Of a DNA stretch of 64,000 nt, positions 32,978 through 50,195 are shown piece by piece. Within the stretch, counting starts at the first letter, position 1. Each line of letters opens with the position of its first letter. Position numbers and translations under genes: made by a program. The stretch lies in assembly GCF_002798405.1 (NCBI RefSeq), contig NZ_PGGV01000029.1, forward strand, positions 372,001 through 436,000, in the 5' to 3' direction. Below the pieces are notes generated by a model that saw only the letters and a list, made by a program, of their open reading frames with translations, was not told the DNA's origin and searched no databases. The stretch comes from Glycomyces xiaoerkulensis (GTDB lineage Bacteria > Actinomycetota > Actinomycetes > Mycobacteriales > Micromonosporaceae).

Positions 32978-32980
32978 ACC

Positions 32981-36493: not shown

Positions 36494-36519
36494 GGGACGA
36501 GTCGGCCGGTACGCCGGAT
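36494..36519. repeat. attL, 26-bp direct repeat
   Basis: The left copy of the att core, beginning GGGACGAGTCGGCCGG and ending GCCGGAT. It is identical over 26 bases to 50,170-50,195 and diverges on both sides. It is a duplicated fragment of the rnpB 3' end. Confidence 0.88.
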
Positions 36520-36746
36520 AGGTTCGCGGAACTTCTCCGACTCCAGCTCATCGAGGGCGGATGGCAGTTGACCTGGTAATTCGAACAGTCGTTGTCAGTC
36601 GTTGTTGGTCAGCATAAGTCGCTCTGGAGCGCCCCCAGCGCGCCCCTGCGCCCCGAACGCGCCCCCATGGGGTGTGCTGGTGCCAGGCGGGGCTGTCTCA
36701 GAAAGTGCTGCCAAGACAGCCCGCGCACAATGCCAAGGTGAGAACT

Positions 36747-36950
36747 CTACTCTTGCTTGGGAACGACCGTTATGAAGGTATTCTCTCCGTTATGCCCCAC
36801 ATACCGGATATCCACCAGTCCAGGGACCTCGATTCGCACGCAGTCCTCCTTAGCGTGCATTCGCTGGTCCTTGGGATGGTTAATCCGGGGGTCGTCCTTC
36901 ATCTCCGCGATAATCTGGCGTGCCTTGGCAACCTGATCTGATCTCTCCAC
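36747..36950 (-). CDS. small hypothetical protein at the left end of the element
   Basis: A 67-aa product from GTG 36950, which has GAGGAG seven to eight bases upstream; an upstream in-frame ATG at 36,989 lacks one. It reads as a soluble protein: a helix (SDQVAKARQIIAEMKDDPRI), then MHAKEDCVRIEVPGLVDIRYV and GENTFITVVPKQE, a beta-rich end. No family is recognised. It is the first gene inside attL and points towards it. Confidence 0.5.
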   Translation of the reverse strand: MERSDQVAKARQIIAEMKDDPRINHPKDQRMHAKEDCVRIEVPGLVDIRYVGHNGENTFITVVPKQE

Positions 36951-37603
36951 AAGGGTCTCCTCTCGATCGGTTTGGCCATTGTCGCGCACCGCTCGTCAGG
37001 GGGATCCATGTAGGGGGGGTCCTCCAGAGCCTCGATATGGGTGAAGTCAACGGCGGTGTCACCTTGTCTGAGTCCGACGACGGAGTCGGCGGCGGTTACC
37101 TGGATCCGCTCGGGCGCTGGTGAAGGTGCCCGCCGGTCTGCTGGCTCACCGGGGTCCCGGACGCCGTTCGTGTCGGTCTCGGGCTCGACGCTGCCCGGAG
37201 TCCCCCGCCGGCCTCCACGTCGCCGGACGGATCGACGTGTGCCGGCCGCTGCGGTCTCCTCGTTGTCGCTGCCTTGGCGCCCCTGCGCCCACCTGTAGTG
37301 GTGTCGGTCGTCGTGCTCGGCTTCGGTTCAGCGCGCACTGCTCCCGCTGGCGCCGCCGCCGGACGGGACCGGCGCCAGCCGCACGCCCGGCCGAGCGGCG
37401 CGCGCCAGGCGCGCGAAGCGCGCCCTTGATGATGTATAGAAAGTTTGAACACGAGCTATGCCGAAGCCGGACGGCTGCAAGGGGATACGGGCTATGGGTT
37501 GGTACTGAGACGGGTCCTGAGTCTTGCAGGCGGGGCGATGGGATTCAGACTGTGACGAGTTTGAGGCTGGCGTCAATGAGGTATCACGGCTAGAATCACA
37601 GGT
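36951..37603. other. 653 bp without a confident gene
   Basis: Several overlapping frames are open on the minus strand (37,452 to 36,985) but are Arg/Pro/Thr-rich and not convincing. One stretch around 37,110-37,000, reading RIQVTAADSVVGLRQGDTAVDF, looks protein-like and could be the end of a decayed gene. A TAGAAT hexamer at 37,591-37,596 sits seven bases before the antitoxin ATG, suggesting a leaderless transcript. Confidence 0.4.
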
Positions 37604-37837
37604 ATGAGTACAGGAAACGTCACAGTCTCGCTGGAATCAGCGATAATCGATATGGCGAAGCAACAGGCGGCTGCCGCGGGTATGAGCATGTCAGCCTGGG
37701 TTGCTCGCACGATCCGGAGTGCCACCTTCGAGGAGGCGGCCCGGCGGTATGCCGAGTTTGATGCAGATGATTCGGACATGTCGGCTTGGGATGCCGAGCA
37801 TGTGTCTTCGGATCGTCTGGCTGGTGCTGAGTGGTAA
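37604..37837 (+). CDS. antitoxin of a MazEF-like pair
   Basis: A 77-aa protein: N-terminal beta strand and helix NVTVSLESAIIDMAKQQAAAAGMSMSAWVARTIRSA, typical of ribbon-helix-helix/CopG-like DNA-binding antitoxins, then an acidic C-terminal tail (YAEFDADDSDMSAWDAEHV) suited to blocking a toxin. ATG 37604 is preceded by a -10-like TAGAAT, with no clear Shine-Dalgarno. It overlaps the toxin gene by 7 bp. Antitoxin-toxin pairs commonly stabilise integrative elements. Confidence 0.8.
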   Translation: MSTGNVTVSLESAIIDMAKQQAAAAGMSMSAWVARTIRSATFEEAARRYAEFDADDSDMSAWDAEHVSSDRLAGAEW

Positions 37838-38127
37838 GGCAGGGCGAGTTCTACGACCATGAGCTGAGGGGACACCGGTACCGGGTGCTTGTAGTGAGCT
37901 CGGATGCTCATAACGCGGTGGGAATGCCGTGGGTGGTTCCACTGCGGCGTAAGACTATGGACGCTCCGCCGTACCTGGTGGCCCTATCTGAGGCTGATCC
38001 GCTCGGTGGTACGGCTGATATAGGACGACTGGCACAGGTCAATGTGAGTGGCGATCCTATCGGGTTGGTCGCGGGTGCGACTATGGATCGCGTGCGTAAC
38101 GCAATTAATGACATCTTCGCCGGATAG
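37831..38127 (+). CDS. PemK/MazF-family endoribonuclease toxin
   Basis: A 98-aa MazF-like toxin. The fold signatures are RQGEFYDHELRGHRYRVLVVSSDAHNAVG, the central VVPLRRKT, and ADIGRLAQVNVSGDP followed by GATMDRVRNAINDIF, which match the tail of PemK/MazF proteins. MazF toxins cleave mRNA at short sequence motifs. GTG 37831 lies within the antitoxin's last codons, so translation is coupled. Its 3' 220 bp are overlapped antisense by the HAD hydrolase reading frame. Confidence 0.82.
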   Translation: MVRQGEFYDHELRGHRYRVLVVSSDAHNAVGMPWVVPLRRKTMDAPPYLVALSEADPLGGTADIGRLAQVNVSGDPIGLVAGATMDRVRNAINDIFAG

Positions 38128-38801
38128 TGTATTAACCTTTCCCCAAGGATGTATCGAAGGTCTGTCATGTGGCCGATCACAGATGAAGCCCCAGCCGCTG
38201 TCAGAGCCTTTCGCTTACCTGGCCTATTTGCATATCCGATGGTCCTGATGTTCGCTGCTTTTCCAGCACTCACGTCTGACGGGGAATCACCCACGAATAG
38301 AGCGGCTGTTGCCTTGATTCCAAGGCTTTCTAGCGCTGTATTGACGACTTGTGGATTCGGCTTCATAAGATCGGGACGGCGATAAGGACGGCCAACAGTT
38401 GTGGAAACGAACTGGGATATTCCTTGAATTTCTAGATAGTATTCGATCGCCTCGGCCGAATTGTTGCTCGCGATCGCGATACGTGTACCACTCTGAGTGA
38501 GATCAGCAAGTAGGCTATTGGTTCCTGGCGTGGAAGTCGCGGTAGAGATCGCCTTTAGCTCTGCTTGGCAGAGTTGGTCTTCGATTGTCTGTGAGGTGTC
38601 CTCTGGAAGCCTGGAGTAGGCCACACGCAGCACTTCCATCGGGTCGGTCAGATCGCCAATCTCTTGCGATACAGCGACGTCGCTAAGGCGAATCGTCGCT
38701 GTGAGTTCACGTGCCACGAGGTCGGCGTTATAGCCAGAGAAGACACTGCAGACCGGTCCATCGAAGTCGAGAATGACGGCTGATAGGTCCGTATAGATCA
38801 T
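37908..38801 (-). CDS. HAD-superfamily hydrolase coupled to the GntR regulator
   Basis: A 297-aa frame whose first 230 residues are a HAD phosphatase. Motif I is ILDFDGP (Asp12, Asp14), motif II IAIASNN, the Lys region RPDLMKPNPQVV and motif IV LFVGDSPSD. After about residue 233 (MTDLRYILGE) the frame continues for 65 residues antisense to the mazF-like gene with no homology, so the natural end is unclear. ATG 38801 overlaps the GntR stop by 4 bp. In pSAM2 the gene paired with the KorSA regulator is Pif, a Nudix hydrolase that blocks redundant transfer. A HAD enzyme in that place may have an analogous role (inference). Confidence 0.78.
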   Translation of the reverse strand: MIYTDLSAVILDFDGPVCSVFSGYNADLVARELTATIRLSDVAVSQEIGDLTDPMEVLRVAYSRLPEDTSQTIEDQLCQAELKAISTATSTPGTNSLLADLTQSGTRIAIASNNSAEAIEYYLEIQGISQFVSTTVGRPYRRPDLMKPNPQVVNTALESLGIKATAALFVGDSPSDVSAGKAANIRTIGYANRPGKRKALTAAGASSVIGHMTDLRYILGERLIHYPAKMSLIALRTRSIVAPATNPIGSPLTLTCASRPISAVPPSGSASDRATRYGGASIVLRRSGTTHGIPTAL

Positions 38802-39667
38802 AAGTCGATTCTACGTTCCGTTGCAATGGTTGTCCATGCGGAGTCAAACCAAGCTCTGGCCGAATCAAGAAACTGAATGCCTTGTTGAGTCGAACTGTCT
38901 CGGCTTGAGAAGTGCGAAAGATGCGCATCTTTGCCCATAGGGTCAAAAATCTCAGCAGATTCGCCATTGATTTTAACTGAATGTTGAACGATCGGATAGA
39001 ACCCAAAGAACACTTCTGTTTCGTTCAGTACGAACATCTTAAAAGTGGGTGCAATTCCGAGCATTCGAGCCTCAAGAGTTCCAGACTTGATGAAGTCCAT
39101 TTCTTGAAGTTCGTGGACCTCGTTGGCTATCTGGTCTAGAGCCTGGTCGGTGATTCGGGTCATTCTACGGCGAACAGTTTCGGAATCGGTTTCATCATTG
39201 ATCGGTCTTGGAAGGGCAAGGGGCTTTGTCATGTCCGACACGATTGCACGAATTGTGATGGTCTCTGGCGAGAGTTCTCCGAGACGGATACGGTCGAACG
39301 CTTCCGCTGTCGCGCCTTGGAGCGTTTCGCCAGAGAACCCCGCAAAATCAATGCTGACGTTGACCTCTTCGAAGGCGGCGGAAACGTGGGGGCGAAGCTC
39401 GATCGCTCGGTGAACCTTGGAGCGAACCCGCGGCTTCTTTCCCTGCTGCGTTACTAGGAGGCCGTCTTGCGAGAGCTTCGTGACCGCTCGCTTGACGGTC
39501 TCGCGAACTACTCCGTAGTGATCTTGAAGTTGCTGGTTGGACGGTAGCTCCTGGCCAGGAGTGAGCTTCCCTGTCTTGATGGCTGCGCGAATGTGATTCG
39601 CGATCTGTACGGATGCGCTGTAGCTGCTCTCAGCGTTGAGTTTGGGCAGGTAGTCGAGGCTGTTCAT
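38798..39667 (-). CDS. GntR-family transcriptional regulator (KorSA-like)
   Basis: A 289-aa regulator. The N-terminal winged helix (about residues 15-85) reads SVQIANHIRAAIKTGKLTPGQELPSNQQLQDHYGVVRETVKRAVTKL and is followed by DGLLVTQQGKKPRVRSK. The C-terminal domain (about 90-289) differs from a standard UTRA domain. In AICEs such regulators repress excision, replication and transfer genes. The gene is divergent from 39,833, and the 165-bp intergenic region carries three copies of a palindrome that is probably its operator. Its stop overlaps the HAD start. Confidence 0.88.
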   Translation of the reverse strand: MNSLDYLPKLNAESSYSASVQIANHIRAAIKTGKLTPGQELPSNQQLQDHYGVVRETVKRAVTKLSQDGLLVTQQGKKPRVRSKVHRAIELRPHVSAAFEEVNVSIDFAGFSGETLQGATAEAFDRIRLGELSPETITIRAIVSDMTKPLALPRPINDETDSETVRRRMTRITDQALDQIANEVHELQEMDFIKSGTLEARMLGIAPTFKMFVLNETEVFFGFYPIVQHSVKINGESAEIFDPMGKDAHLSHFSSRDSSTQQGIQFLDSARAWFDSAWTTIATERRIDL

Positions 39668-39682
39668 GCCCCTACTCTACTA

Positions 39683-39773
39683 CATGGCTAGCCAGGACAG
39701 AAAATCTCTGCCAGGGCCTTGCATGGCTAGCCAGGTGTGTGTACCATCGAGATATCGAGCATGGCTAGCCAGG
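39683..39773. promoter_or_regulatory. three palindromic operator copies
   Basis: CATGGCTAGCCAGG occurs exactly at 39,683-39,696, 39,722-39,735 and 39,760-39,773, with spacings of 39 and 38 bp. Each contains the perfect 10-bp palindrome TGGCTAGCCA. The array fills the divergent promoter between the GntR gene (start 39,667) and the next rightward gene (39,833). A dimeric GntR repressor binding all three sites would control itself and the element's rightward transcript. Confidence 0.75.
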
Positions 39774-39832
39774 CAAGCCAGCTTGCTTCACCAGGAAGGT
39801 CTTGGTGGGGGACTCGGAAAGAGGTGTTCTCG

Positions 39833-40204
39833 ATGCTGCAGAAGCTGCCGATCGATCTGAGCGGCTACACGCTGATGATCTCTGAGGCTCCGGAGCTGAA
39901 GTCGTTCACCGACAAGAACGGTCAGACCCAGGTGGCGACCGAGTACGGCACGGATAAGCCGGTGTACGTGGTGAGCGTGTTCGCGAAGTCGCGGCAGACG
40001 TTCGCCAACGGCAAGCGGCCCAAAGGCGAGGAGATCAAGGTGGAGTTCACTCGCGAGCCTGCCGAGCAGGAGTTCGACGAGGGTATGTACATCCAGCTCG
40101 ATCGCCCGACCGTGTCGGTTTCGGACTTCACGAACCCCGAGGGCAACCGGTTCATCAATCAGAAGTTTCACGCTGAGGGGCTGGTGCCGGCGCCGAAGGG
40201 CTAG
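39833..40204 (+). CDS. conserved AICE hypothetical protein
   Basis: A 123-aa soluble protein: MLQKLPIDLSGYTLMISEAPELKSF, a central VYVVSVFAKSRQTFANGKRPKGEEIKVEF and an end VSDFTNPEGNRFINQKFHAEGL. Proteins like this accompany the tra genes in actinomycete elements, but no function is known. ATG 39833 has AGAGGTG eight bases upstream. It is the first gene of the rightward transcript controlled by the triple palindrome. Confidence 0.75.
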   Translation: MLQKLPIDLSGYTLMISEAPELKSFTDKNGQTQVATEYGTDKPVYVVSVFAKSRQTFANGKRPKGEEIKVEFTREPAEQEFDEGMYIQLDRPTVSVSDFTNPEGNRFINQKFHAEGLVPAPKG

Positions 40205-40418
40205 CGGCTGGCGCTGCTGGGTGGCCCTGCTTCCGGTGTTTGACGGGACGGCCGGTTTGAGTCCGGCCGGGGTGCTGGGCCGGTGATTCGGCACGGGTGG
40301 ATTGCATAAGTCTGCGCGTTGCGTTCGCTGGTGTGTTGTTCGACGAATTGCACAGGGTGTTTGAGATTGCCTTTTTCCGGGCTGACCTGCCGACCATAAG
40401 CGACACTGGCTGTCGTGG
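40205..40418. other. intergenic stretch with a hairpin
   Basis: Together with the leader that follows, this is a gene-free gap of about 320 bp. It contains a hairpin GGCCGG-tttgagt-CCGGCC near 40,249-40,267, a possible terminator of the preceding gene, without a T-run. Confidence 0.4.
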
Positions 40419-40524
40419 TCGATGGGTTCATTCCTCTACGGGCACAACAGGAAGGAGCTGGACTCCCCGTGGGGGTTTGTGCGCATCGAGAGTCGATGTG
40501 CGGGTCACCGGAAAGAGAGAAGAG
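40419..40524 (+). promoter_or_regulatory. repeated 5' leader, copy 1
   Basis: It starts with TCGATGGGTTCATT (40,419-40,432) and contains a 22-base block beginning GTGGGGGTTTGTGCGC and ending CATCGAG (40,469-40,490), then GGTCACCGGAAAG. Both blocks and the distance to the start codon (34 bases) recur in copy 2 at 41,025. TCGATG can pair with CATCGA, closing a stem around the variable middle. It may be a cis-acting RNA or a conserved promoter-leader unit. Confidence 0.55.
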
Positions 40525-40710
40525 TTGCGCGAGGACTACAACGCCAAGATTGCTGATGAGCTGGAGGCGCGGAAGCTGCGGGAGTTCGTGGACGACCTGA
40601 GTCGTCTGTACATGGACGCGGGCGACCTCGAGAAGCTCGTGAACCGCGTCCGGCGCGAGGCGAAGGACCTGGGATTCCGACTCATCGAGTCGACGGATGC
40701 CGGCCAGTAG
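40525..40710 (+). CDS. small hypothetical protein
   Basis: A 61-aa charged helical protein (EDYNAKIADELEARKLREFVDDLSRLYMDAGDLEKLVNRV). The TTG start at 40,525 is chosen by analogy with copy 2 of the repeated leader, where the ATG lies at the equivalent distance after CCGGAAAG. An upstream in-frame GTG at 40,498 would fall within the leader. No family is recognised. Confidence 0.6.
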   Translation: MREDYNAKIADELEARKLREFVDDLSRLYMDAGDLEKLVNRVRREAKDLGFRLIESTDAGQ

Positions 40711-40766
40711 CGGTGCCGTCGTGGGTCGGTCGGGGAGTGTGATCTCTCCGGCCGGCCCTGACCGGC

Positions 40767-40952
40767 TTAGTGGTCAGGCAGTTTGCGTTGCATCTCGGCG
40801 ATGTCGTCGCGAAGGTGACCGATCGCCTCGTGCAGTTGCTGGATGTCGCTTCTGGCTCGTGCGAGTTCGTCGGCGTGGGCAGCAAGTGCGCTAGCGAGTT
40901 CGTCGCTGCGGTCGTCTACTTGGTCGGTCGGATGTTGCGTTTCGTCTGTCAT
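40767..40952 (-). CDS. small coiled-coil protein
   Basis: A 61-aa acidic protein on the strand opposite to its neighbours. Residues about 17-60 form a likely coiled coil with heptad spacing (LASALAAHADELARARSDIQQLHEAIGHLRDDIAEMQRKL). There is no clear Shine-Dalgarno before ATG 40952. It could be a small structural or regulatory protein of the element; equally it may be a chance frame, but the amino-acid pattern favours coding. Confidence 0.5.
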   Translation of the reverse strand: MTDETQHPTDQVDDRSDELASALAAHADELARARSDIQQLHEAIGHLRDDIAEMQRKLPDH

Positions 40953-41024
40953 GTGTTGGGAGCCTAAGCGATCGGGCGTCGCTGTGGTGTCGCTCGCCTG
41001 ACAGTTCCGGTTCCCTTGTGCCGC

Positions 41025-41118
41025 TCGATGGGTTCATTTCTGCGCTGCTGCGTTGCTGTGGCGGTGGGGGTTTGTGCGCATCGAGGTCCGGTGCGTGGGT
41101 CTCCGGAAAGGAAAGTGC
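41025..41118 (+). promoter_or_regulatory. repeated 5' leader, copy 2
   Basis: TCGATGGGTTCATT (41,025-41,038), the same 22-base block (41,064-41,085) and GGTCTCCGGAAAG before the ATG at 41,119. CTCGATG pairs perfectly with CATCGAG around a variable loop. The middle segment differs in length and sequence from copy 1, so the two conserved blocks are under separate constraint. Confidence 0.55.
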
Positions 41119-41463
41119 ATGGACTATTCGAAGTCGCTGACATTGTCAGAGTATTTGGCAGGATCGATCAGCGCTGAGGAGCTGCCTGGGCGGATCGCCG
41201 CTGGGTTGGCTGTGCGGCTGCCTGACGGGGTCACTGTCGACGAGGTTTGGGAGCGGCGCCCCGGGTTCTGGATGGCCGACTGCGAGGGCATCGCGACGGT
41301 TTTGGACCTGATCGATGTCGCTGCGGCGCTCGATTGCGGGGTGATGCTCTCGGCTGAGGGTGACCGGCAAGTCGGAGTCGTGAAGTGCTGGCTGCCGGAT
41401 GGCTGGGTCGAGATCGTTGAGTCGTTCCCGTTCACCGCGACCGAGGAGGCCGAGCATGGCTAG
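41119..41463 (+). CDS. hypothetical protein of the element
   Basis: A 114-aa acidic protein: SLTLSEYLAGSISAEELPGRIAAGLAVRLPDGVTVDEVWERRPGFWMADCEGIATVLDL, ending VGVVKCWLPDGWVEIVESFPF. ATG 41119 has GGAAAGGAAAG upstream. It overlaps the next gene by 8 bp and is the first of five tightly packed genes (41,119-42,710). No function is recognised. Confidence 0.7.
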   Translation: MDYSKSLTLSEYLAGSISAEELPGRIAAGLAVRLPDGVTVDEVWERRPGFWMADCEGIATVLDLIDVAAALDCGVMLSAEGDRQVGVVKCWLPDGWVEIVESFPFTATEEAEHG

Positions 41464-41677
41464 GTCTCGAACCCGGTTCTGTCCCAAGGGCAGCGAGTGC
41501 GGCGCCTGTGGCCGCCGGCGGCATCTGGTGGTCGTTGAGGTCGGCACGGACTTCGGGACCGCCTGCGAAACGGTCTGCGGCGGTTGCGCCGAGCGTGGGG
41601 ACCTCCCACCGATCGGGGTGTTCGCTGCTGCGGCGTGTGTCAACGCGCATCGGACGCACCTTGGGCAGGTGGCGTGA
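41456..41677 (+). CDS. Cys-rich zinc-ribbon-like protein, paralogue 1
   Basis: A 73-aa protein with FCPKGSECGACG and CETVCGGCAERGDLPPIG: two C-x2-3-C pairs likely to bind zinc. It aligns with the next gene along its whole length (C..C..C, VVE, CxxCxxxGxLPxxG, AHxxHxG), so the pair arose by duplication. ATG 41456 overlaps the previous stop and its own stop overlaps the next ATG (TGATG), so translation is coupled. Confidence 0.72.
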   Translation: MARSRTRFCPKGSECGACGRRRHLVVVEVGTDFGTACETVCGGCAERGDLPPIGVFAAAACVNAHRTHLGQVA

Positions 41678-41934
41678 TGATCGATCACGGGATCGACCGG
41701 TGCCCGGGCGAAGAGGAATGCGAGTCCTGCGAGGACGACGGGTATCTCCTGATCGTCGAATTCGAGTCACCGGTGGGGCTGTTGTGCCTGACGCTGTGTG
41801 AATCGTGCCGCGAACTGGGGGAGCTGCCGTCGCTCGGCTGGGGCACGGCGGTGCGGAAAGTCATGGCGCACTGCGAGCATCGCGGCGTCGACGGTGACTT
41901 CGATCTGCGGCAACGCGAGGCCGAAGCATCGTGA
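41677..41934 (+). CDS. Cys-rich zinc-ribbon-like protein, paralogue 2
   Basis: An 85-aa protein with RCPGEEECESCEDDGYLLIVEF and LCLTLCESCRELGELPSLGWG, the same Cys spacing and framework as the preceding gene, plus an acidic C-terminal extension. It probably binds zinc. It is coupled to both neighbours by start-stop overlaps. Small zinc-ribbon proteins in AICEs have no assigned role. Confidence 0.72.
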   Translation: MIDHGIDRCPGEEECESCEDDGYLLIVEFESPVGLLCLTLCESCRELGELPSLGWGTAVRKVMAHCEHRGVDGDFDLRQREAEAS

Positions 41935-42284
41935 TCACCGCCGAACAGGTCGCAGCAGTCGCCGCCGATGGCGACATCGATGCGGTGGACGGGTTGTTCC
42001 GGCAGGCGCTGACACCGGTAGTGCCTGCCGGGCTGGTCCAGCCTCGCTGGGTCGCTGGGAGCCGGTTGCGGGGCGTGTTCGAGGGCTATGGGGCGGTGCG
42101 GGCCTTCGCCGAGTGGTGCGAGGTCTTCGAGGTCGAGGCCGAGGTGGAGTTCGCCCGGCCGCCGGAGGTGGTCCTGTTCTGCGAGGTCGCTCTTGCCGGC
42201 TACCGCGTGGGGCTCTCGTGCTGGGCCGATGAGCACGAGGCCGGGGCGTTCTTCTGCCTCAACCCTGGTTGGGGCGTTGATTGA
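41931..42284 (+). CDS. hypothetical protein of the element
   Basis: A 117-aa acidic protein from GTG 41931, overlapping the previous gene by 4 bp. It opens with a helix (ITAEQVAAVAADGDIDAVDGLF) and continues with beta-rich sequence rich in Trp and Phe (FEVEAEVEFARPPEVVLFCEVALAGYRVGLSCW). No family is recognised. Confidence 0.65.
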   Translation: MITAEQVAAVAADGDIDAVDGLFRQALTPVVPAGLVQPRWVAGSRLRGVFEGYGAVRAFAEWCEVFEVEAEVEFARPPEVVLFCEVALAGYRVGLSCWADEHEAGAFFCLNPGWGVD

Positions 42285-42302
42285 TCGAAAGGAGGTGTAG
42301 CG

Positions 42303-42710
42303 GTGGGCGCCACCGTGACCGATACCGGCACCGCGGCGGTGAGTCTGGAGGCGCGGCTTGCCGGGCTGATCGAGCGGGAGTCTGACCGGCCCGACCGGGA
42401 CGGCCCGTTCGCTACCTACCAGTTGAACGCGTTCTTCGCCGAGGCGTGCCCCGGCTTGGAACTGCCGTGGGAGTGGCGTTGGCACTACGGGTGCCCGCGA
42501 GGCCGGTTGACCTCGATGGTCCGGCCGGGGGTGACCGGGTGGGCCGATGCCTGCGGCGATGGGTCGGTGGAGGCCGAGGCGGTTGGCGGCTCGGAGGTGA
42601 TGGTGCAGGCCGACTGCTGGGCCTTCGGCCAGCGGTTCACCGTCTGGGGCTACCTCGACCGGTCCGAGGCCGACGACATACCCAATCTGGCCTGGGGCCG
42701 CTCGATGTGA
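42303..42710 (+). CDS. hypothetical protein of the element
   Basis: A 135-aa acidic, Trp-rich protein from GTG 42303, which has a strong GGAGGTG nine bases upstream. Segments include ARLAGLIERESDRPDRDGPFATYQLNAFF and DCWAFGQRFTVWGYLDRSEADDIPNLAWG. It lies in the run of small genes between the regulator and TraB. No family is recognised. Confidence 0.65.
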   Translation: MGATVTDTGTAAVSLEARLAGLIERESDRPDRDGPFATYQLNAFFAEACPGLELPWEWRWHYGCPRGRLTSMVRPGVTGWADACGDGSVEAEAVGGSEVMVQADCWAFGQRFTVWGYLDRSEADDIPNLAWGRSM

Positions 42711-42743
42711 TCGCCCTGGGAGACAAGGAAGGAGGTGTACCGG

Positions 42744-42851
42744 ATGGGGGACTACTGGTGGGTGTGGCTGGTGCTGGGCTGCTCGCTGCTGCTGAACCTG
42801 GCGCTGATCCGTCGTGAGTGCCGGCGGCTGTTCCGGTACTGGAATCTCTAG
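42744..42851 (+). CDS. 35-aa single-pass membrane peptide
   Basis: ATG 42744 has an excellent Shine-Dalgarno (AAGGAAGGAGGTG, ending eight bases upstream). The product starts MGDYWWVWLVLGCSLLLNLA, continues with a basic RRECRRLFRYW and ends NL at TAG 42849-42851. One hydrophobic helix with a positive cytoplasmic-side tail is clear. It could be a partner of the TraB/Spd membrane apparatus. Confidence 0.55.
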   Translation: MGDYWWVWLVLGCSLLLNLALIRRECRRLFRYWNL

Positions 42852-42959
42852 CAATGCCTGATTGCTTCTTGCCCTTGCCGCGTGACGGGGATCGGTAGGG
42901 GTGAGTGGTCACCAGGCATGGCGGCCACGTCGAACATACCGAATCAAGAAGGGAGCATT

Positions 42960-43244: not shown

Positions 43245-43272
43245 CCGCTCCCCGACAGGAAGGAGATATTCC

Positions 43273-43461: not shown

Positions 43462-43592
43462 GGCCGGTCCGGCTGGTCTGATCCTCCTCAAACCCGTTGC
43501 CGGGGTTGGGGAGCGGTCATGTCTGCCGGGAAGCAGGCACATCTTACTGATCATCATCTATTCGTATCCGTCAATGACGGGAGGTATTCGTC

Positions 43593-44993
43593 ATGCCCGA
43601 AAACCAGGGCCATTCGAAACGGAAAGTCGGTCTGGAATGGAAGGCGGCCGGTTGGGCGGCGCGGCATCCGGGCCTGTCGCTGGGGACTCCGGCCGTTGGG
43701 GTTGCGGCGGCCTCGGCGCCCGAAGTCGCCGCGGTCGTGGCCGGTGGCGGTATCGCCGGGGCTCTGGCGTGGGCGCGGGCGCACCCCAACAGCTTCGACC
43801 GGTACGTGCTGCCGCCGCTGCGGACGGTGCGCCGCCGCTGGTCGTGGACCTATGCGGGCCTGGGTTGGCGTCGGAACATGCGCGAGGTCGGGCTGGCTCG
43901 CCAGCATCCGGATACCGGTGAGCTGCTGGTGCCGCGGGTGCTGCGGGTGCGGGCCCACAACCGGCATGTGGAAACGGTGTGGGTCAAGCTCCTCAAGGGC
44001 CAGACCCACCGGCAGTGGAGCGACACGTTGGAGGCTCTGGCGGTGGCGTTCAATGCCGAGCGGGTCTCCATTGAGAAGGTCAAGCCGCGGGTGGTGGCGC
44101 TGATCGTGCAGCGCACCGAGCCGTTCACCGATCCGATCCCGGCCCCGGAGCTGGTCGATGACCTGGAGTCGGTGGACTTGGCCTCGGTGTATCTGGGGAG
44201 GGACGAGTTCGGGCGCCAGTGGCGCGAATCGGTCCTCGACAACCACTTCTTGGTTGCCGGGGCCTCCCGGTCGGGCAAGAACTCGGTCACCTGGGCGCTG
44301 CTGGGGTCGCTGGCTCCGGCGATCCGGGCCGGTCTGGTCCGGGTGTGGCTGCTGGATCCCAAGCAGACCGAGCTGTCGGTCGGGCGGGGGCTGGCTCACC
44401 GGTACGGGGCGGGGCTGGCCGAATGCGCCGACGTCTGCCGCGAGTTCCTCAACGACCAGCAACGCGTGCAGGCGCTCTTGCAGGACCAGGGGTTGCGGAA
44501 GTTCACTCCGAGCGTCCAGACGCCGCTGAACCTGCTGATCGCTGACGAGCTGGGGGCGCTGCTGGCCTACGGGTCCGGTAGCGACGACGACCGCAAGCAC
44601 ATCCGGACCGTCCGGACCACGCTCGATCTGATCGGCTCCCAGGGGCTGGCGACCGGGCACGCGATGCACGGGTATGTGCAGGAGCCGACCAAGGATGTCG
44701 TCTCCTGCCGTGAGCTGTTCACCCTGCGGGTCTGCCTGCGGGTCACCAGTGCCGCTCACCCCGAAATGGTGCTGGGCGACGGGATGCGCACCCGTGGCGC
44801 GATTGCTGATGAAATCCCGGCTGTCCCCGAGTCGGCCGGTATCGGGTTCAAGGTCGTCGAACGCACCCGCGTTCCAGTCCGCGTCCGCGCTGCTTACTCC
44901 TCGGACGCCGACATCAAGCGCCTGGTCGACTTCGTCAACACCGGCCCCGGTCCCGACTCTGAGCAGTCGCCGGGCCTGCGCCTGGTCGCCTGA
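43593..44993 (+). CDS. FtsK/SpoIIIE-type DNA translocase (TraB/TraSA-like)
   Basis: A 466-aa conjugative translocase of the kind that moves double-stranded DNA between mycelia with no relaxase or type IV system. Residues about 33-65 are hydrophobic (PAVGVAAASAPEVAAVVAGGGIAGALAWA) and may anchor it. The motor has Walker A GASRSGKNS (223-231), with Asn230 in the position usually Ser/Thr/Gly. The segment VRVWLLDPKQTELSVGRG and Walker B LNLLIADELGALL follow, then the C-terminal motif RVTSAAHPEMVLGDG. ATG 43593 has GGGAGG upstream. DNA recognition in this family uses a C-terminal winged helix, which is not obvious here. Confidence 0.88.
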   Translation: MPENQGHSKRKVGLEWKAAGWAARHPGLSLGTPAVGVAAASAPEVAAVVAGGGIAGALAWARAHPNSFDRYVLPPLRTVRRRWSWTYAGLGWRRNMREVGLARQHPDTGELLVPRVLRVRAHNRHVETVWVKLLKGQTHRQWSDTLEALAVAFNAERVSIEKVKPRVVALIVQRTEPFTDPIPAPELVDDLESVDLASVYLGRDEFGRQWRESVLDNHFLVAGASRSGKNSVTWALLGSLAPAIRAGLVRVWLLDPKQTELSVGRGLAHRYGAGLAECADVCREFLNDQQRVQALLQDQGLRKFTPSVQTPLNLLIADELGALLAYGSGSDDDRKHIRTVRTTLDLIGSQGLATGHAMHGYVQEPTKDVVSCRELFTLRVCLRVTSAAHPEMVLGDGMRTRGAIADEIPAVPESAGIGFKVVERTRVPVRVRAAYSSDADIKRLVDFVNTGPGPDSEQSPGLRLVA

Positions 44994-45023
44994 CCATCAA
45001 CGAATCGAAAGGAGGTGATCGCC

Positions 45024-45920
45024 GTGGGCGCCAACACTGAAGCTGAGGAGAAGGGCGGTGGTCGGGAGGCGCGGAAGGTGGTCAAGCTCCGGCGGAAGGT
45101 CGGGCAGGCGCGCCAGGTCCAGGCCATCGCCGATGACCCGTATCTGAAGGTCGTGGAGCTGGACCGGATGCGCGGCTCGATCACGCGGGCGATGTGGCTG
45201 CTGCTGGCGGTCGGGCTGGCGTTCACGACCACCGGCGTCCATGACTACATCGCCGCCGGGCTGACCGTGGCTGATCCGATGTGGTGGGGCGGCTGGGCCG
45301 TGGAGCCGACCTTCGCCGGGCTGCTGATCACGCTGCTGCGGTGGGAGACGATCATGGCCACCCGCGGGGTAGCGGTCGGGTCGGGCTGGGTGCGGGCCAC
45401 TAAGTACCTGCTGCTCGGCTCCACGCTGGTGATGAACCTCCTTGCCGGGCTCGCCAAGGGCGGGGTGTTCGTCGCGCTGCACCTGATCATCCCGGCCCTG
45501 GTGTTCTGCCTGGCCGAAGTCATGCCGGTCATTCAGGAGCGGTTCACCACCGCCCGTGACCGGCTCCTAGCCGAGATCAAGCAGGCAGACGCCACACCGG
45601 ACCGGCCGGAGTCGTCGGTGCCCGACACGGTGGCGGGCTTGGCAACCGAGCCGGGCCAGGAAGCGGGACCGGCGCCGGTCTCACCGACCCTGCCGCCGGT
45701 CGCCTCCGAAGCGACTGCCAGCGAGCCGACTCCGCCGGCCGACGTCCGGCCGCCGAAACTCCCGCCGCAACTGATGCGGTCGATCGAGACCAAGGCCGCC
45801 GAAGTCGCCGAGACCGGTCGGGCTATCACCGCCGGCGAAATCCAGCAGGTGGTCAAGCTGCCGACCGGCATGGCCGAACAAGCCGCTCGCTACTTCGCCG
45901 CCGCTCACGCTCGCGCCTGA
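45024..45920 (+). CDS. DUF2637 membrane protein (Spd-like)
   Basis: A 298-aa protein from GTG 45024, with GAAAGGAGGTGATC upstream. A basic N-terminus precedes membrane helices AMWLLLAVGLAFTTTGVHDYI, WAVEPTFAGLLITLLRWETI, YLLLGSTLVMNLLAGLAKGG and VFVALHLIIPALVFCLAEVMP, typical of DUF2637. A Pro/Ala-rich linker and a helical C-terminal domain (LMRSIETKAAEVAETGRAITAGEIQQVV) follow. DUF2637 proteins are encoded beside TraB in AICEs and plasmids and are thought to help intramycelial spread. A terminator follows. Confidence 0.85.
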   Translation: MGANTEAEEKGGGREARKVVKLRRKVGQARQVQAIADDPYLKVVELDRMRGSITRAMWLLLAVGLAFTTTGVHDYIAAGLTVADPMWWGGWAVEPTFAGLLITLLRWETIMATRGVAVGSGWVRATKYLLLGSTLVMNLLAGLAKGGVFVALHLIIPALVFCLAEVMPVIQERFTTARDRLLAEIKQADATPDRPESSVPDTVAGLATEPGQEAGPAPVSPTLPPVASEATASEPTPPADVRPPKLPPQLMRSIETKAAEVAETGRAITAGEIQQVVKLPTGMAEQAARYFAAAHARA

Positions 45921-45955
45921 CCGGCCCCAGCACACACCACATACCGCGCACTACT

Positions 45956-45997
45956 GGCCCGGATCGGACACGAACCGTTCGATCCGGGCCTCTTGTC
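45956..45997 (+). terminator. intrinsic terminator after the DUF2637 gene
   Basis: Stem GGCCCGGATCG (45,956-45,966) pairs with CGATCCGGGCC (45,980-45,990), 13-base loop, followed by TCTTGTCT. Confidence 0.78.
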
Positions 45998-46027
45998 TCT
46001 ACCGAACCATCAAGCGAGGGGAAACCA

Positions 46028-46357
46028 ATGCGCCACAAGATGTACGGGCTCATGACCGGTCTCAACTGGTACCTGTTCATGGACCGCGTCGAACAAGCCA
46101 CCGGCGACGCCGTCGACTGGACCACCGTCAAGGGCAACACCGGCGACCCGTGGCCGCCCGATCTGTGGATCGAGGGCAACAACGGCCGCGGCTCGATGCG
46201 GCTGAACTACAAAGGCCACCGCACCGAGTTCACCTACAGCGACTACATCTCCGGCGAGGAGTTCGACTCCGAACAGTTCATGTCCGATGTCGGGGACTGG
46301 CTTGACCGCCAGATGCGCGACGACCCCTACCCGTGGGCCGAAGGGAGCCGGACATGA
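46028..46357 (+). CDS. hypothetical protein of the element
   Basis: A 109-aa acidic protein: MRHKMYGLMTGLNWYLFMDRV, DLWIEGNNGRGSMRLNYKG and YISGEEFDSEQFMSDVGDWLDRQM. ATG 46028 has GAGGGGA upstream. It overlaps the next gene by 4 bp. No family is recognised; it lies between the transfer and replication modules. Confidence 0.65.
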   Translation: MRHKMYGLMTGLNWYLFMDRVEQATGDAVDWTTVKGNTGDPWPPDLWIEGNNGRGSMRLNYKGHRTEFTYSDYISGEEFDSEQFMSDVGDWLDRQMRDDPYPWAEGSRT

Positions 46358-46656
46358 TCCCCATCTACATGACCGGGGACTCCCTGTTCGTCCGCATCGT
46401 CGGCGACTGGCTCCAAATCAAAGGCGCCCGACTGATCCTCGACGACGAATGCGCCGAGAACTGGGAGGAAGACGGCACACGGTTCACCAAGGTGCACTTC
46501 GACCACGGCCGAGCGGTCATGGTCACCCTGATGCCCGAACGCGATGAGGTCGCTATCGACCTCCCGCTCAACGACCTCGGCCAGCCTGAATGGCCGTTGG
46601 ACTGGCCGACCGTTGCCGATCAGATCATCGCTGTCAACGACAACCGCGGCTGCTAA
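46354..46656 (+). CDS. hypothetical protein of the element
   Basis: A 100-aa acidic beta-rich protein (MIPIYMTGDSLFVRIVGDWL, LILDDECAENWEEDGTRF, GRAVMVTLMPERDEVAIDLPL). ATG 46354 overlaps the previous stop (ATGA), so the pair is translationally coupled. Its function is unknown. Confidence 0.65.
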   Translation: MIPIYMTGDSLFVRIVGDWLQIKGARLILDDECAENWEEDGTRFTKVHFDHGRAVMVTLMPERDEVAIDLPLNDLGQPEWPLDWPTVADQIIAVNDNRGC

Positions 46657-46776
46657 CGAGCGGCGCCGACGATCACCGATCGATTCGGCCGCCTTGATCC
46701 TGAAAGGACTTCCGCTCGGACCGGCTTCATCGCTGGCCCGAGCGCTTGTCGTCGCCACATGCTGGAAGGAATCATC

Positions 46777-47055
46777 ATGCCGTACATCGTCTTGCAAGGC
46801 GAGATGTACAACCTGCTCGCCGACGCCGTCGAAGCCAACGGCGGCAAAGCCTACAGGCACATCGAATGCATTGAGGAAGCCGGATCGGACGCGCCCATCA
46901 CCTCCGTCACCATCCGGTTTGCACACCTGATCCTGAACTACGAGCACCCTGACCCCGCTCGGAACCGAACGATCCGAGTCCCTTACCCGGCCGGTCCCGA
47001 CGCCGTCGACCAGGCCGCGTCCCTGATCGTGGAGATCGCTGAGCACCCCGGCTAA
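46777..47055 (+). CDS. hypothetical protein of the element
   Basis: A 92-aa protein: MPYIVLQGEMYNLLADAVEA, YRHIECIEEAGSDAPITSVTIRF and PYPAGPDAVDQAASLIVEIAE. ATG 46777 is chosen because GGAAGGA lies six bases upstream; ATG 46759 is in frame but within that ribosome site context. It is followed by a terminator hairpin before repSA. No family is recognised. Confidence 0.62.
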   Translation: MPYIVLQGEMYNLLADAVEANGGKAYRHIECIEEAGSDAPITSVTIRFAHLILNYEHPDPARNRTIRVPYPAGPDAVDQAASLIVEIAEHPG

Positions 47056-47089
47056 ACCGACACGACACAACCGAATCACGACTGTCTGC

Positions 47090-47125
47090 GCCCGGACCGG
47101 CTGTATCTGCTGGTCCGGGCTTGCT
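47090..47125 (+). terminator. hairpin before the replication gene
   Basis: Stem GCCCGGACC (47,090-47,098) with GGTCCGGGC (47,112-47,120), then TTGCT. It lies 34 bp after the preceding stop and 34 bp before repSA. Confidence 0.62.
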
Positions 47126-47154
47126 GTGTCTCCACCACGAAAGGAAGGTGACCG

Positions 47155-48534
47155 ATGCCGACTACTGCCGATCTCGACCGGGCGTTGAGCGAGTTCGCCT
47201 CCAGACCCGGCTTCGCTCTCTGGCGGGAAAAGGTCAAGTCCACGCACGGCTGTGCGGCGCCGGTCAAGCTGCGCGGCTCCTCGACCATCCGCCGCAAGCA
47301 CACCGGCGAGGTCCTGCGGGCCACCGGCGGCTCGGTCTGGGTCCCCTGCGGAACCCGTCGCGAACAACTCTGCGCCTCCTGTTCGGCCTGGTATGCCGAT
47401 GATGCCTTCCACCTCATCCGCGCCGGTCTCTCCGGCGACGACACCAAGGACGTTGACGCCGCCGTCGCCGACCGGCCGCGGTGGTTCGTCACCCTCACCC
47501 CGCCGAGCTTCGGCCCGGTCCACTCCCGCATCGTCGGCCCCACTGGGCGGCTGCGGCGGCCGTGCGCCTGCGGGTCCTGGCACTCCGAGCACGACTCCCG
47601 GCTCGGGCAGGCGGTCGAGCCCGACGCCTACGACTATGAGGCGGCGGTGCTGTGGCAGGCTCACGCCGGGGAACTATGGCACCGGTTCACCATCGCCTTG
47701 CGCCGCGAGCTGGCGCGGCTGGGCGGGGTGAAGGTCGCCGAGCTGAACCGGGCGGTTCGGCTGTCGTATGCCAAGGTCGCCGAGTACCAGCGGCGCGGTC
47801 TGGTCCACTTCCACGCCGCGATCCGCCTCGACGGCGCCGACGGCCCGGCCACCGCTCCGCCGGGGTGGGCCAGCAAGGACACGCTTGCGGCTGCTATCCG
47901 GGCCGCCGCCGATGCGGTCACCGTCGCTACCGTCCGCCCGGACGGGTCGGTTCTCGAGCTCGGGTTCGGGGCGCAACTCGATGTGCGCGATATCGCCGGT
48001 CGAGCCGACCAGGCCGACCAGGAGCACGAGTCGGAACGGGTCGCCTCCGACCGGGTGGCCTCCTACGTCGCCAAGTACGCCACCAAGTCCACCGGCGCCC
48101 ATGACGGTCCCGACCGCCGCGTCTGCTCGCTCGAGCAGATCGACCTGCTACCGGTGTCGGACCATCACCGGGCGATGATGCGCACCGCCTGGCACCTGGG
48201 CGGCCTGGACCGATACGAGGGCCTGAACCTCCGCCGGTGGGCGCACATGCTCGGCTTCCGCGGCCACTTCCTCACCAAATCCCGCCGCTGGTCGACCACT
48301 CTCGGCGAGCTGCGCTCGATCCGCGCCCGCTACCGCCTGGCCGAAATCCTCGCCGAGCTCGAAGTCGCCGAGTCCGACGTGGTCGTGGTCAACGACTGGG
48401 AAGCGGTCGGCTTCGGGCACGCCTCCGCCGCCGAACGTGAGCTCGCGGCCGGTATCGCCGAAACCATGCTTCAACAAAAACTGACCAAAAAGGATACAAA
48501 GAAGGGGATGCACCATGCGCGCACGCAATCCTGA
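47155..48534 (+). CDS. RepSA-family rolling-circle replication initiator
   Basis: A 459-aa initiator that nicks the excised circle to start rolling-circle replication. A zinc-binding N-terminal part is visible (VWVPCGTRREQLCASCSAWYADDAF and CACGSWH). The HUH metal-binding motif is LVHFHAA (His218, His220). The catalytic Tyr motif is VASYVAKYATKSTG (Tyr304/Tyr308, Lys311). The helical C-terminus includes RRWAHMLGFRGHFLTKSRRWSTTLGELR, a hallmark of RepSA proteins. ATG 47155 has GGAAGGTGACC upstream. It overlaps the next small gene by 20 bp. Confidence 0.92.
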   Translation: MPTTADLDRALSEFASRPGFALWREKVKSTHGCAAPVKLRGSSTIRRKHTGEVLRATGGSVWVPCGTRREQLCASCSAWYADDAFHLIRAGLSGDDTKDVDAAVADRPRWFVTLTPPSFGPVHSRIVGPTGRLRRPCACGSWHSEHDSRLGQAVEPDAYDYEAAVLWQAHAGELWHRFTIALRRELARLGGVKVAELNRAVRLSYAKVAEYQRRGLVHFHAAIRLDGADGPATAPPGWASKDTLAAAIRAAADAVTVATVRPDGSVLELGFGAQLDVRDIAGRADQADQEHESERVASDRVASYVAKYATKSTGAHDGPDRRVCSLEQIDLLPVSDHHRAMMRTAWHLGGLDRYEGLNLRRWAHMLGFRGHFLTKSRRWSTTLGELRSIRARYRLAEILAELEVAESDVVVVNDWEAVGFGHASAAERELAAGIAETMLQQKLTKKDTKKGMHHARTQS

Positions 48535-48712
48535 CCGTCCGGCCGTGCAGATCCGACTCACCGGCACTAGGGCCGACGTCGTCGACGCCCTCGCAGCACT
48601 CGACGAAGCCGCCCTCGAGTCCTGGCGCCTCGAAGTCCAGGCCACCAAACACCGGGACACCGGGCAGGTACAGGCATACGGCCGCCTCCTGCGACGGGTG
48701 GAGGTGCGCTGA
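48515..48712 (+). CDS. small hypothetical protein between repSA and xis
   Basis: A 65-aa basic protein: VQIRLTGTRADVVDALAALDEAALESWRLEVQATKHRDTG. It overlaps the end of repSA by 20 bp and its stop overlaps the xis ATG (TGATG). AICE operons often have a small protein here; its role is unknown. Confidence 0.68.
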   Translation: MRARNPDRPAVQIRLTGTRADVVDALAALDEAALESWRLEVQATKHRDTGQVQAYGRLLRRVEVR

Positions 48713-48891
48713 TGGAACGACTCTGGACCATCGAAGAGACCGCCGCATACCTCGGTTTTCCAGTGGAGACCCTCCGAACCTGGCGAAAGCGCAAGGTCGG
48801 GCCGAAGGCGGCGAAGATGGGACGTCACCTCCGCTACCACCCGGGACACGTCAAACGGTGGGTTGAGCAATGCGGGGGAGAGGTCGCCTGA
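48712..48891 (+). CDS. xis: excisionase-like HTH protein
   Basis: A 59-aa helix-turn-helix protein of the excisionase/MerR-like HTH_17 group. It opens MERLWTIEETAAYLGFPVET, continues LRTWRKRKVGPKAAKMGRHL and ends with a wing of the type RYHPGHVKRWVEQ. Such proteins bind near att sites and steer the integrase towards excision. Both ends overlap neighbouring genes by one to a few bases, so it is translated with the integrase. Confidence 0.88.
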   Translation: MERLWTIEETAAYLGFPVETLRTWRKRKVGPKAAKMGRHLRYHPGHVKRWVEQCGGEVA

Positions 48892-50072
48892 TGCGTGCCT
48901 ATATCGAGGATCGCTGGTGGAAGGTCGTCTACGAGGACGGGAAGCGGAAGCGGATCAAGACCCGACGCTACGGCGCGGGGAATCGGTACCGAGCTCGTTG
49001 GACCGACCCGACCGGGAAGTGGCGCTCAGCGTCGTTCGAAAAGAAGGGCGACGCCGTCGACAAGATCGACCAGGTCAAGCAGGACCTGAAAACCGGCAGC
49101 TACATCGACCCGGACGCCGGCAAGACTGATGTCGGCGCCTTCGCCGAGCAGTGGCTTGTGGGGCTCGGCGGTGACCCCTCCACCAAGGAGAAGGTCAAGC
49201 AGTCGATGAATAAGCACGTGATCCCGTACTTCACCGGTCGGCCCGTGGAGACGGTCGCGCCGAGCACGATCCGCACATGGCTCGGTGAGTTGGGATTGGG
49301 TGAGGCGGCCAAGTCGGTGCTCTTCGTCTATGTGAACTCGATGTTCGAGGCGGCCGTGGACGATCGGCTGATCCGCACCAACCCGTGTCAGGCGAAAAGT
49401 CTTCAAAAGCCGCGGCCGGTACAGCGCAGGATCAAGCCGTGGACGCGAGCTCAACTCGACTCCGTCCATGCCAACCTTGCGCCCCGCTATCGGGCGATGG
49501 TTCCGGTCGGAGCCGGGTGCGGGCACCGGATCGGCGAAGTCTTCGGCATCGGCGTCGATGACATCGACTGGGCTAACGAAGAGATCGACATTCGACGCCA
49601 GGTGAAGCTGGTCGGCAGTAAGCGGGTATTCGCACCACCGAAACGCAACTCGGTACGGACGGTACCGCTTCCCAGGTTCACCGCCAGGGCCCTTCGCGAC
49701 CACATGGAGCGGTTCCCGCCCGTGTCGGTGACGCTGCCGTGGCTGGAACCGGACGGGGAACCGGTCTCGGTGAAGCTGGTCTTCACCAACATACGTCGAA
49801 ACCCGATCCACCGAAGCACGTTCATGAGCGAACCGGGCGGGTGGAAGCGAGGGATCTCGAATACGGCCTTCGAGCCGGAGCAGGACACCGGTACGCACTC
49901 GTGGCGGCACTACTTCGCAGCCGCGTATCTGGAGCACAGCGGGAACGTCCGCGCCCTGGCCGACTTCCTTGGGCACAAGGACCCGGGTTTCACACTGCGC
50001 GTCTACGGCCATTTGATGCCCAACAGTCGGCCCCGTGCCCGTCAGATTCTCGATGAGGCTTGGGAGGCTTAG
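48891..50072 (+). CDS. int: tyrosine site-specific integrase
   Basis: A 393-aa phage-type integrase. The N-terminal AP2/SAM-like arm-binding region spans about 1-80 and the core-binding domain about 80-175. The catalytic domain has the complete set R213 (GCGHRIGEV), H336-x-x-R339 (THSWRHYFA), H362 (FLGHKD) and nucleophile Y372 (LRVYGHLM). ATG 48891 overlaps the xis stop. It ends 97 bp from the right att repeat, the normal position for the enzyme that inserted the element at the rnpB 3' end. Confidence 0.93.
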   Translation: MRAYIEDRWWKVVYEDGKRKRIKTRRYGAGNRYRARWTDPTGKWRSASFEKKGDAVDKIDQVKQDLKTGSYIDPDAGKTDVGAFAEQWLVGLGGDPSTKEKVKQSMNKHVIPYFTGRPVETVAPSTIRTWLGELGLGEAAKSVLFVYVNSMFEAAVDDRLIRTNPCQAKSLQKPRPVQRRIKPWTRAQLDSVHANLAPRYRAMVPVGAGCGHRIGEVFGIGVDDIDWANEEIDIRRQVKLVGSKRVFAPPKRNSVRTVPLPRFTARALRDHMERFPPVSVTLPWLEPDGEPVSVKLVFTNIRRNPIHRSTFMSEPGGWKRGISNTAFEPEQDTGTHSWRHYFAAAYLEHSGNVRALADFLGHKDPGFTLRVYGHLMPNSRPRARQILDEAWEA

Positions 50073-50169
50073 CGCCCCAGGCGCGCCCCGAGAGGCAAGT
50101 TCAAGACCAATAAGGAGGGTGTCTAGCAGCATTTATGCAGCTAGGCGCCCTTCTCTGCGTTGAGAGTGT

Positions 50170-50195
50170 GGGACGAGTCGGCCGGTACGCCGGAT
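50170..50195. repeat. attR, 26-bp direct repeat inside the rnpB 3' end
   Basis: The right copy of the att core, identical to 36,494-36,519. On the minus strand it is the last 26 nucleotides of RNase P RNA, including the 3' strand of helix P1 (GGCCGACTCGTCCC). Integration therefore leaves a complete RNA gene on this side. Confidence 0.88.

Follow-up and report, generated by a model that had tools for sequence, protein, structure and literature searches.

An integrative element of AICE type at the 3' end of the RNase P RNA gene of Glycomyces xiaoerkulensis, and recurrent use of this site in its family

Can the end of an essential ribozyme gene serve as the attachment site of an integrative and conjugative element and, if so, is this a peculiarity of one genome or the habit of a family? 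The question is raised by 64,000 nucleotides of the Glycomyces xiaoerkulensis genome (contig NZ_PGGV01000029.1, positions 372,001 to 436,000; hereafter the window, to which all coordinates refer). A preliminary description, made from the sequence, had seen there an actinomycete integrative and conjugative element (AICE) inserted into rnpB, the gene for the ribonuclease P (RNase P) RNA. The answer, which we give with high confidence, is that a 13.7-kb AICE lies in the 3' end of rnpB and has replaced that end, that the remnant of an older element sits beside it, and that the family uses this site recurrently and in both orientations. Other genomes are referred to by our own labels (G000 and so on).

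The element is bounded by a 26-bp direct repeat, exact at 36,494-36,519 and 50,170-50,195. No third copy with up to three mismatches was found in the 64-kb window, nor was any in 100 dinucleotide shuffles. The right copy is the final 26 nt of rnpB, whose Rfam boundary falls at 50,170, and it includes the 3' strand of helix P1. This rnpB is the sole RF00010 match in the 4.37-Mb assembly (97.65% complete). No transfer RNA (tRNA) or transfer-messenger RNA (tmRNA) gene was found in the window, and the attachment (att) site is the rnpB 3' end. The open reading frame (ORF) of the tyrosine integrase (int, 48,870-50,072) stops 97 bp from the rnpB-side repeat. Thus the perfect repeat, its identity with the rnpB terminus and the distance of the integrase from it, all of them claimed in the preliminary description, are confirmed.

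The relatives of the host show what the locus looks like without the element. Our genus set comprised 22 Glycomyces genomes, the window's own included, each with a single rnpB match. In 15 of them a homologue of the NUDIX gene at 32,456-32,977 lies within 0.9 kb after rnpB and is followed by cytochrome oxidase genes, which is the empty site expected in relatives. It had been predicted that the sequence left of 36,494 would follow rnpB directly there; this fails because 32,978-36,493 is itself extra DNA, and the NUDIX homologue takes that place instead. An integrase at least 67% identical to that of the window is present in five of the 22 genomes, and in each of the five the match stops 101-107 bp short of rnpB, as one would ask of homologues sharing the target; three weaker matches (27-32% identity) are on contigs other than that of rnpB. 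G002 and G017 carry a 25/26 copy of the rnpB end at 14.4 and 16.6 kb, respectively, with the NUDIX gene beyond it, and an alignment of the 300 bp outside the distal copy of G002 to G012, whose site is empty, has 246 identities, 37 mismatches and 6 gap positions. Since the close integrase adjoins rnpB in five of five cases and the NUDIX gene follows rnpB in 15 of the 17 other genomes, rnpB is the attB of the Glycomyces elements. The two genomes left over give this reading no help: the G018 contig stops 3 bp past rnpB and is uninformative, and in G019 (L050, G019:C121) a 5.8-kb insertion of other content separates rnpB from the NUDIX homologue. That insertion has no match to the element proteins of the window and no copy of the rnpB end within six mismatches.

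The same site is used well beyond the genus. Taking as family the GTDB family of the window's genome (Micromonosporaceae), we searched for the integrase at E <= 1e-60 in a family sample of 101 genomes and a class sample of 394, and found it in 16 and 33 of them, respectively. In ten of the 16 (G000, G017, G116, G217, G460, G468, G477, G485, G490 and G494) rnpB lies within 20 kb on the same contig. In the eight linked cases outside Glycomyces the polarity is reversed, with rnpB at the end far from int. The integrases at rnpB sites outside Glycomyces are 40-46% identical to that of the window, and at 12 of 16 non-Glycomyces loci the integrase, or a fragment of it, reads toward the distal att copy and ends less than 100 bp from it. 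In G565, G527, G462 and the second unit of G485 the integrase before the att copy is reduced to fragments. The family displays single elements, tandem arrays and fossils at the rnpB end, and we propose a grouping of rnpB-targeting integrases, recognized by an integrase at the rnpB end or one element length off, with a copy of that end on the far side; this is the arrangement found here.

Two of the arrays deserve separate mention. That of G460 (L165-L169, G460:C1:3882500-3968000) consists of five units at rnpB with six att copies ca. 16 kb apart, and three of its integrases are identical. In G494 a second integrase (L163 15819-16943), ca. 33% identical and on the opposite strand, abuts the same att from the other side, so that the Glycomyces type of polarity occurs inside one array.

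A pattern search blind to the integrase gave a similar picture. Across 354 family genomes it listed places in 85, none of them Glycomyces, and a hand count of those 85 gave at least 11 in which the rnpB end recurs on the same strand, in two or more copies on one contig within 25 kb. A stricter pattern was applied to 80 genomes of genus g2 (160 genomes), chosen for at least two same-strand loose matches; G728, G732, G733, G734, G736, G116 and G217 also qualified and were outside the 80. Same-strand pairs were counted by hand in 38 of the 78 g2 genomes listed, that is, in at least 38 of the 160 in the genus; the selection raises the share among the 78, and the identity of a pair member as rnpB was checked only at the linkage-tested loci.

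Several observations speak against so general a use of the site. Six of the 16 genomes (G424, G433, G471, G480, G481 and G503) lack the linkage; in G481 and G503 rnpB is near a contig end, and G481 has an att copy beside int. None of the 30 class-sample genomes outside the family shows linkage to rnpB, with the proviso that in 17 of them rnpB and the integrase are on separate contigs and a linkage could be missed. At three of the 16 loci (G217, G468 and G517) the end of the integrase is 0.8-3.3 kb short of the distal copy, and one more, G562, has the repeat pair and no integrase that we could find. The flanks up to 1.5 kb of integrase loci L059-L098 (40 of the 45 loci outside the genus) contain no RNA at Rfam gathering scores; where the integrase uses rnpB, the reason is that the gene is found at the opposite end of the element. 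On balance, rnpB is a recurrent docking site in the family, and its core is found in both orientations to int. The preliminary description had called an rnpB attB unusual, and we found no earlier report of one in the open literature searched; as a one-off, the label does not hold.

The reversal seems to concern the core and not the arms of the att sites. The window has two GCGCCCC heptamers on the int side and four on the far side (Table 1), and same-orientation heptamers common to both arms exceed 200 mononucleotide shuffles in 12 of 13 att pairs. The int-side arm has two heptamers 11 bp apart in nine of the 13 (7 bp in G477) and a single exact one in G485, G494 and G460; the far-side arm has mostly three to five, ca. 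95-149 bp from the core. The heptamer itself varies, from GCGCCCC in the window to ACGGCCC in G002 and G017, and GACGCCC, ATGGCCC or AGCCCCC elsewhere. From this like layout it follows that Glycomyces and the rest differ in the direction of the core but not in that of the arms relative to int. Less favorably, the G460 arms score 3 against a shuffle maximum of 3, G485 and G494 exceed theirs by one point, and G490 scores 6 also with the arm inverted. Their resemblance to the 21-nt repeats described in the consulted part of the pACPL report (PMC3364876) makes the heptamers candidate arm sites of the integrase.

Whether the two polarities go back to one capture of rnpB was approached through a tree of the integrases. 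The five from Glycomyces form one group (support 100/100), and ten rnpB-linked rows from other members of the family, three of them identical copies from G460, fall within a group of 15 rows (97/93), whose other five (G471, G480, G481 and G424 twice) are without contig linkage. Since the union of both groups as sisters has a support of only 57/81, a single origin with later inversion and two separate origins are both possible.

How does the ribozyme put up with a replaced end? As RNA the repeat reads 5'-AUCCGGCGUACCGGCCGACUCGUCCC and contains UCCGGCGU, which we take from established knowledge of RNase P to be the 3' strand of P4, and GGCCGACUCG, the 3' strand of P1. It thus spans the P4 3' strand, the joining region and the P1 3' strand, and the P1 partner is ca. 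330-350 nt off, at the other end of rnpB. The earlier suggestion that the element exploits a symmetric P1 stem does not survive this geometry, and P1 symmetry was discarded as the basis of the site. In all 22 Glycomyces genomes, the five carriers included, the variable (closing) base of P4 is complementary to its partner, as A-T or G-C, and none of the ten P1 pairs is a mismatch if G-U is allowed. Among two-copy family loci outside Glycomyces the att copies are identical over 24 nt in 12 of 15; in the three where they differ (G477, G517 and G562) the proximal copy is Watson-Crick with the 5' strand and the distal one would give G-U. This fits a proximal copy held by the function of the ribozyme, with some slack, because the rnpB-proximal P1 has a C-A mismatch in G460 and G494 and an inner G-U in G563. 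The mismatches weaken a strict matching of P1 and leave the target itself unaffected.

The element also brings its own sequence to the downstream side of rnpB, and there a hairpin is found. In the Glycomyces elements a stem of 14 positions follows rnpB; over nine aligned arms (five intact, four fossil) 84.9% of its cells pair, against 76.7% in shuffles (reached by 0/500) and at most 50% when the stem is slid, and both sides have changed at seven stem pairs (1/500 shuffles). Folded over 65 nt, the five Glycomyces elements have z from -2.9 to -5.9, that of the window being -2.94. The mean z at this length is -2.44 for 17 rnpB-proximal ends, -0.74 for 15 distal ends and -0.21 for 14 element-free sites, and the proximal ends fold better than the element-free sites (p 0.001) and the distal ends (p 0.011). 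In three of the five Glycomyces elements, 4-5 T lie within three bases after the stem on the rnpB strand. All this would plausibly make the hairpin a substitute terminator of rnpB. The case is weakened in that the stem was defined on G002, one of the nine arms, which favors it over the slid controls; that outside Glycomyces alone the proximal and distal ends differ at p 0.17; that the window's hairpin has a non-significant z of -1.07 when 90 nt are folded; and that the 14 "empty" folds include G019 in spite of its 5.8-kb insertion. An alternative that we consider a little short of even is that the hairpin belongs to the att architecture, or ends the int transcript, and has nothing to do with terminating rnpB. 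It does sit between the arm-type repeats and the core, and the inverted repeat, read on the int strand, could terminate the int message, whereas the covariation over nine arms with the fossils among them, the rnpB-proximal z of -2.9 or lower in every Glycomyces element and the T-run on the rnpB strand are better accounted for by a terminator.

On the opposite side, the flank is not what the relatives would lead one to expect. The NUDIX gene ends at 32,977 and the distal att starts at 36,494, with 3.5 kb of extra DNA between. The part that adjoins the repeat, 36,286-36,484, can be aligned collinearly with the intact element over its P' arm and the 3' end of int, at a score of 59 where shuffles average 33.6. 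Like scars were found downstream of rnpB in G003 (z 9.2) and G021 (z 5.4) and outside the G017 element (z 6.1), each at 0/200 shuffles. Altogether 19 flanks were tested and four scored 0/200 dinucleotide shuffles. We read 36,286-36,493 as the probable remnant of an earlier element, and from the scars at several rnpB flanks it follows that rnpB was entered more than once in Glycomyces. The rest, 32,978-36,285, is probably cargo of the older insertion. Fossils are less general than this may suggest: the other 15 of the 19 flanks have z of 3.6 or less and are treated as not demonstrated, among them that of G012 (z 3.6, 1/200), its homologue outside the G002 element (8/200), and those of G011 (6/200), G016 (6/200) and G019 (7/200); nor was a far-side att of the older remnant recognized near 33,000.

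The same 3.5 kb might instead be native chromosome that in this lineage lies between rnpB and its usual neighbor, something we judge quite improbable. The genes for the isopentenyl-diphosphate isomerase, the synthase-like protein and the methyltransferase do resemble a small biosynthetic cluster, and no degenerate far-side att was recognized. The collinearity of the repeat-adjoining sequence with the P' arm and int 3' end at 0/200 shuffles, the like scars in G003, G021 and outside the G017 element, and the restriction of the squalene/phytoene-synthase-like gene to one of the 22 genus genomes, the window's own, argue for the older insertion; together with the absence of the segment from the rnpB neighborhoods of relatives, they led us to reject the flank as plain chromosome. 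The small cluster itself, at 33585-36046, is a possible terpenoid cargo.

Is the resident element an AICE? Besides the integrase and its flanking direct repeats it has an excisionase, a RepSA initiator and an FtsK/SpoIIIE transfer protein (Table 1), the combination that defines this kind of element. An ORF in the position of xis is also present in G001, G002 and G017, which have translocase homologues 61-63% identical as well. For xis, a 65-aa ORF at 48,515-48,712 was considered and dropped, having no family match beyond a weak DUF, and 48,712-48,891 was taken instead. The gene set listed beforehand was int, xis, RepSA initiator, TraB-type translocase, GntR regulator and a DUF2637 protein. Profile matches bear out all but the last: a Pfam scan of ten element ORFs at E up to 10 did not bring up DUF2637. 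From its position we take the "DUF2637 protein" to be the product of 45,015-45,920, which has no Pfam match at E <= 10 and a PHROG match of unknown function only, and this is also all that can be said for it as an Spd spread protein. Comparison with plasmids gave three short matches, every one within repSA, and 968 phage records had integrase matches, with 24-27% identity among the 20 matches listed. The element is thus supported as AICE-type, of the RepSA/TraB kind and integrated at rnpB, with excision and transfer predicted. Two points count against it: the RepSA match of 445 bits is below the NCBIfam equivalog cut-off of 700, and neither an excised circle nor transfer can be demonstrated from sequence.

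Table 1. Features of the rnpB locus and its element (window coordinates)
Feature	Position	Strand	Evidence
NUDIX gene, conserved chromosomal neighbor of rnpB in element-free relatives	32456..32977	-	neighborhood comparison
Extra DNA: methyltransferase, squalene/phytoene-synthase-like protein, isopentenyl-diphosphate isomerase (idi); probable cargo	32978..36285	.	no matches in relatives' rnpB neighborhoods; idi equivalog match
Apparent decayed P' arm and int 3' end of older element, outside distal att	36286..36493	-	local alignment z 5.2, 0/200 dinucleotide shuffles
Distal att copy	36494..36519	.	exact repeat; equivalents in G002 and G017
Four P-arm heptamers GCGCCCC, same orientation, spacing 11, 8, 11	36629..36665	+	
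HAD hydrolase, cargo or partner of GntR regulator	37908..38801	-	PF13419 8e-19
GntR regulator	38798..39667	-	PF00392 1.2e-14
TraB-like FtsK/SpoIIIE translocase, 466 aa	43593..44993	+	PF01580 1.3e-9; PHROG FtsK/SpoIIIE 2e-18
Conserved element protein with hydrophobic stretches	45015..45920	+	phrog_25954, unknown function; ca. 56% identical homologues in G001, G002, G017
RepSA-type replication initiator	47155..48534	+	PF20199 1.3e-140; NCBIfam RepSA 445 bits, under equivalog cut-off
xis, 59-aa excisionase	48712..48891	+	HTH_17 2.7e-10; TIGR01764 6e-5, under curated cut-off
Tyrosine integrase ORF, 400 aa, alternative start near 48,891	48870..50072	+	PF00589 2e-17; PHROG integrase 2e-49
Two P'-arm heptamers GCGCCCC, 11 bp apart, putative arm-type integrase sites	50072..50089	+	
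Hairpin shortly after rnpB, element-supplied, putative terminator	50116..50151	-	
rnpB-proximal att copy, last 26 nt of rnpB, 3' strands of P4 and P1	50170..50195	.	exact repeat; P4/P1 partners pair in 22/22 Glycomyces genomes
rnpB, RNase P RNA class A, attB gene	50170..50540	-	RF00010 278.7 bits, model 1-367

It is conceivable, if unlikely, that the element is a stranded genomic island, a former AICE now immobile, whose rnpB-side repeat is kept simply as a part of rnpB. Its left neighbor is already a decayed element and truncated units occupy the same site in G565, G527 and G462. However, the two att copies still agree at every position, even though no RNA constrains the distal one, and the int, xis, repSA and translocase ORFs are all open.

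For the AICE we would envisage the following course, in which the activity of Int and Xis, transfer and the exact crossover point are predictions. The tyrosine integrase would recombine attP with the last 26 bp of rnpB, leaving one copy on the body of the ribozyme and a spare copy at the far end. With both P4 and P1 3' strands inside the identity block, any donated part would pair with the 5' strands of the host, and the ribozyme would stay functional. The element end joined to rnpB would bring along the hairpin that plausibly ends the rnpB transcript. An older element at the same site would have decayed to the remnant outside the distal copy. A wider proposal is that rnpB is a dedicated, family-wide dock for AICEs that accepts the core in both polarities (the int end abutting the ribozyme in Glycomyces, the opposite end in the other family members examined, with the arm-type repeats oriented alike to int throughout), whose elements carry a replacement P4/P1 end and, at least in Glycomyces, a hairpin ending the transcript, and whose P1/P4 pairing may limit the range of hosts; for this the balance seems to us about even.

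What seems to us most novel here is that, across a family, the end of an essential ribozyme gene is used recurrently and in both directions. With it, the gene ends known to serve integrative elements would come to include that of an essential catalytic RNA, and the properties that suit a gene to be attB (deep conservation, single copy, tolerance of a replaced 3' end) can be tested in a natural setting. Opposite polarities at one site within one integrase family raise the question of how the orientation of the core is set. In practice, an rnpB integrase could provide a single-copy landing site for the genetics of Glycomyces and its relatives.

How does this compare with what is known? A survey of Actinobacteria reported 144 AICEs, mostly with tyrosine integrases, and in the consulted parts of it the vast majority of these, the pSLS subfamily excepted, are placed in tRNA 3' ends (PMC3218068), in agreement with what the preliminary description had said of known AICEs. 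Neither "rnpB" nor "RNase P" occurs in the main text of that survey. The open literature searched, with subscription papers and island tables outside its scope, held no report of rnpB as attB; the single paper there that came up for rnpB together with an integrase and attB, or with a genomic island, has rnpB as a source of promoters. Within the same integrase family as that of the window, an integrase from outside the GTDB family (G246; L123, G246:C23:538634-558633; 42% identity) has its att in the 3' end of an apparent glutamine synthetase gene, that is, a target other than rnpB. Going by the portions consulted of the report on them, the pSAM2/pACPL AICEs of Streptomyces and Actinoplanes share with our element int, xis, RepSA and an FtsK-type transfer protein, and pACPL shares also the identity segment at the 3' end of an RNA gene and the repeats flanking the attP core; it differs in its target, a proline tRNA gene with a 43-nt identity segment, in place of the RNase P ribozyme gene (PMC3364876). 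In the habit of insertion there is a likeness to the ssrA-specific islands of Dehalococcoides, where, according to the part of that report drawn on here, a single-copy structural RNA gene is likewise reused by related elements, the target being the tmRNA gene and the hosts Dehalococcoides (PMC3146451).

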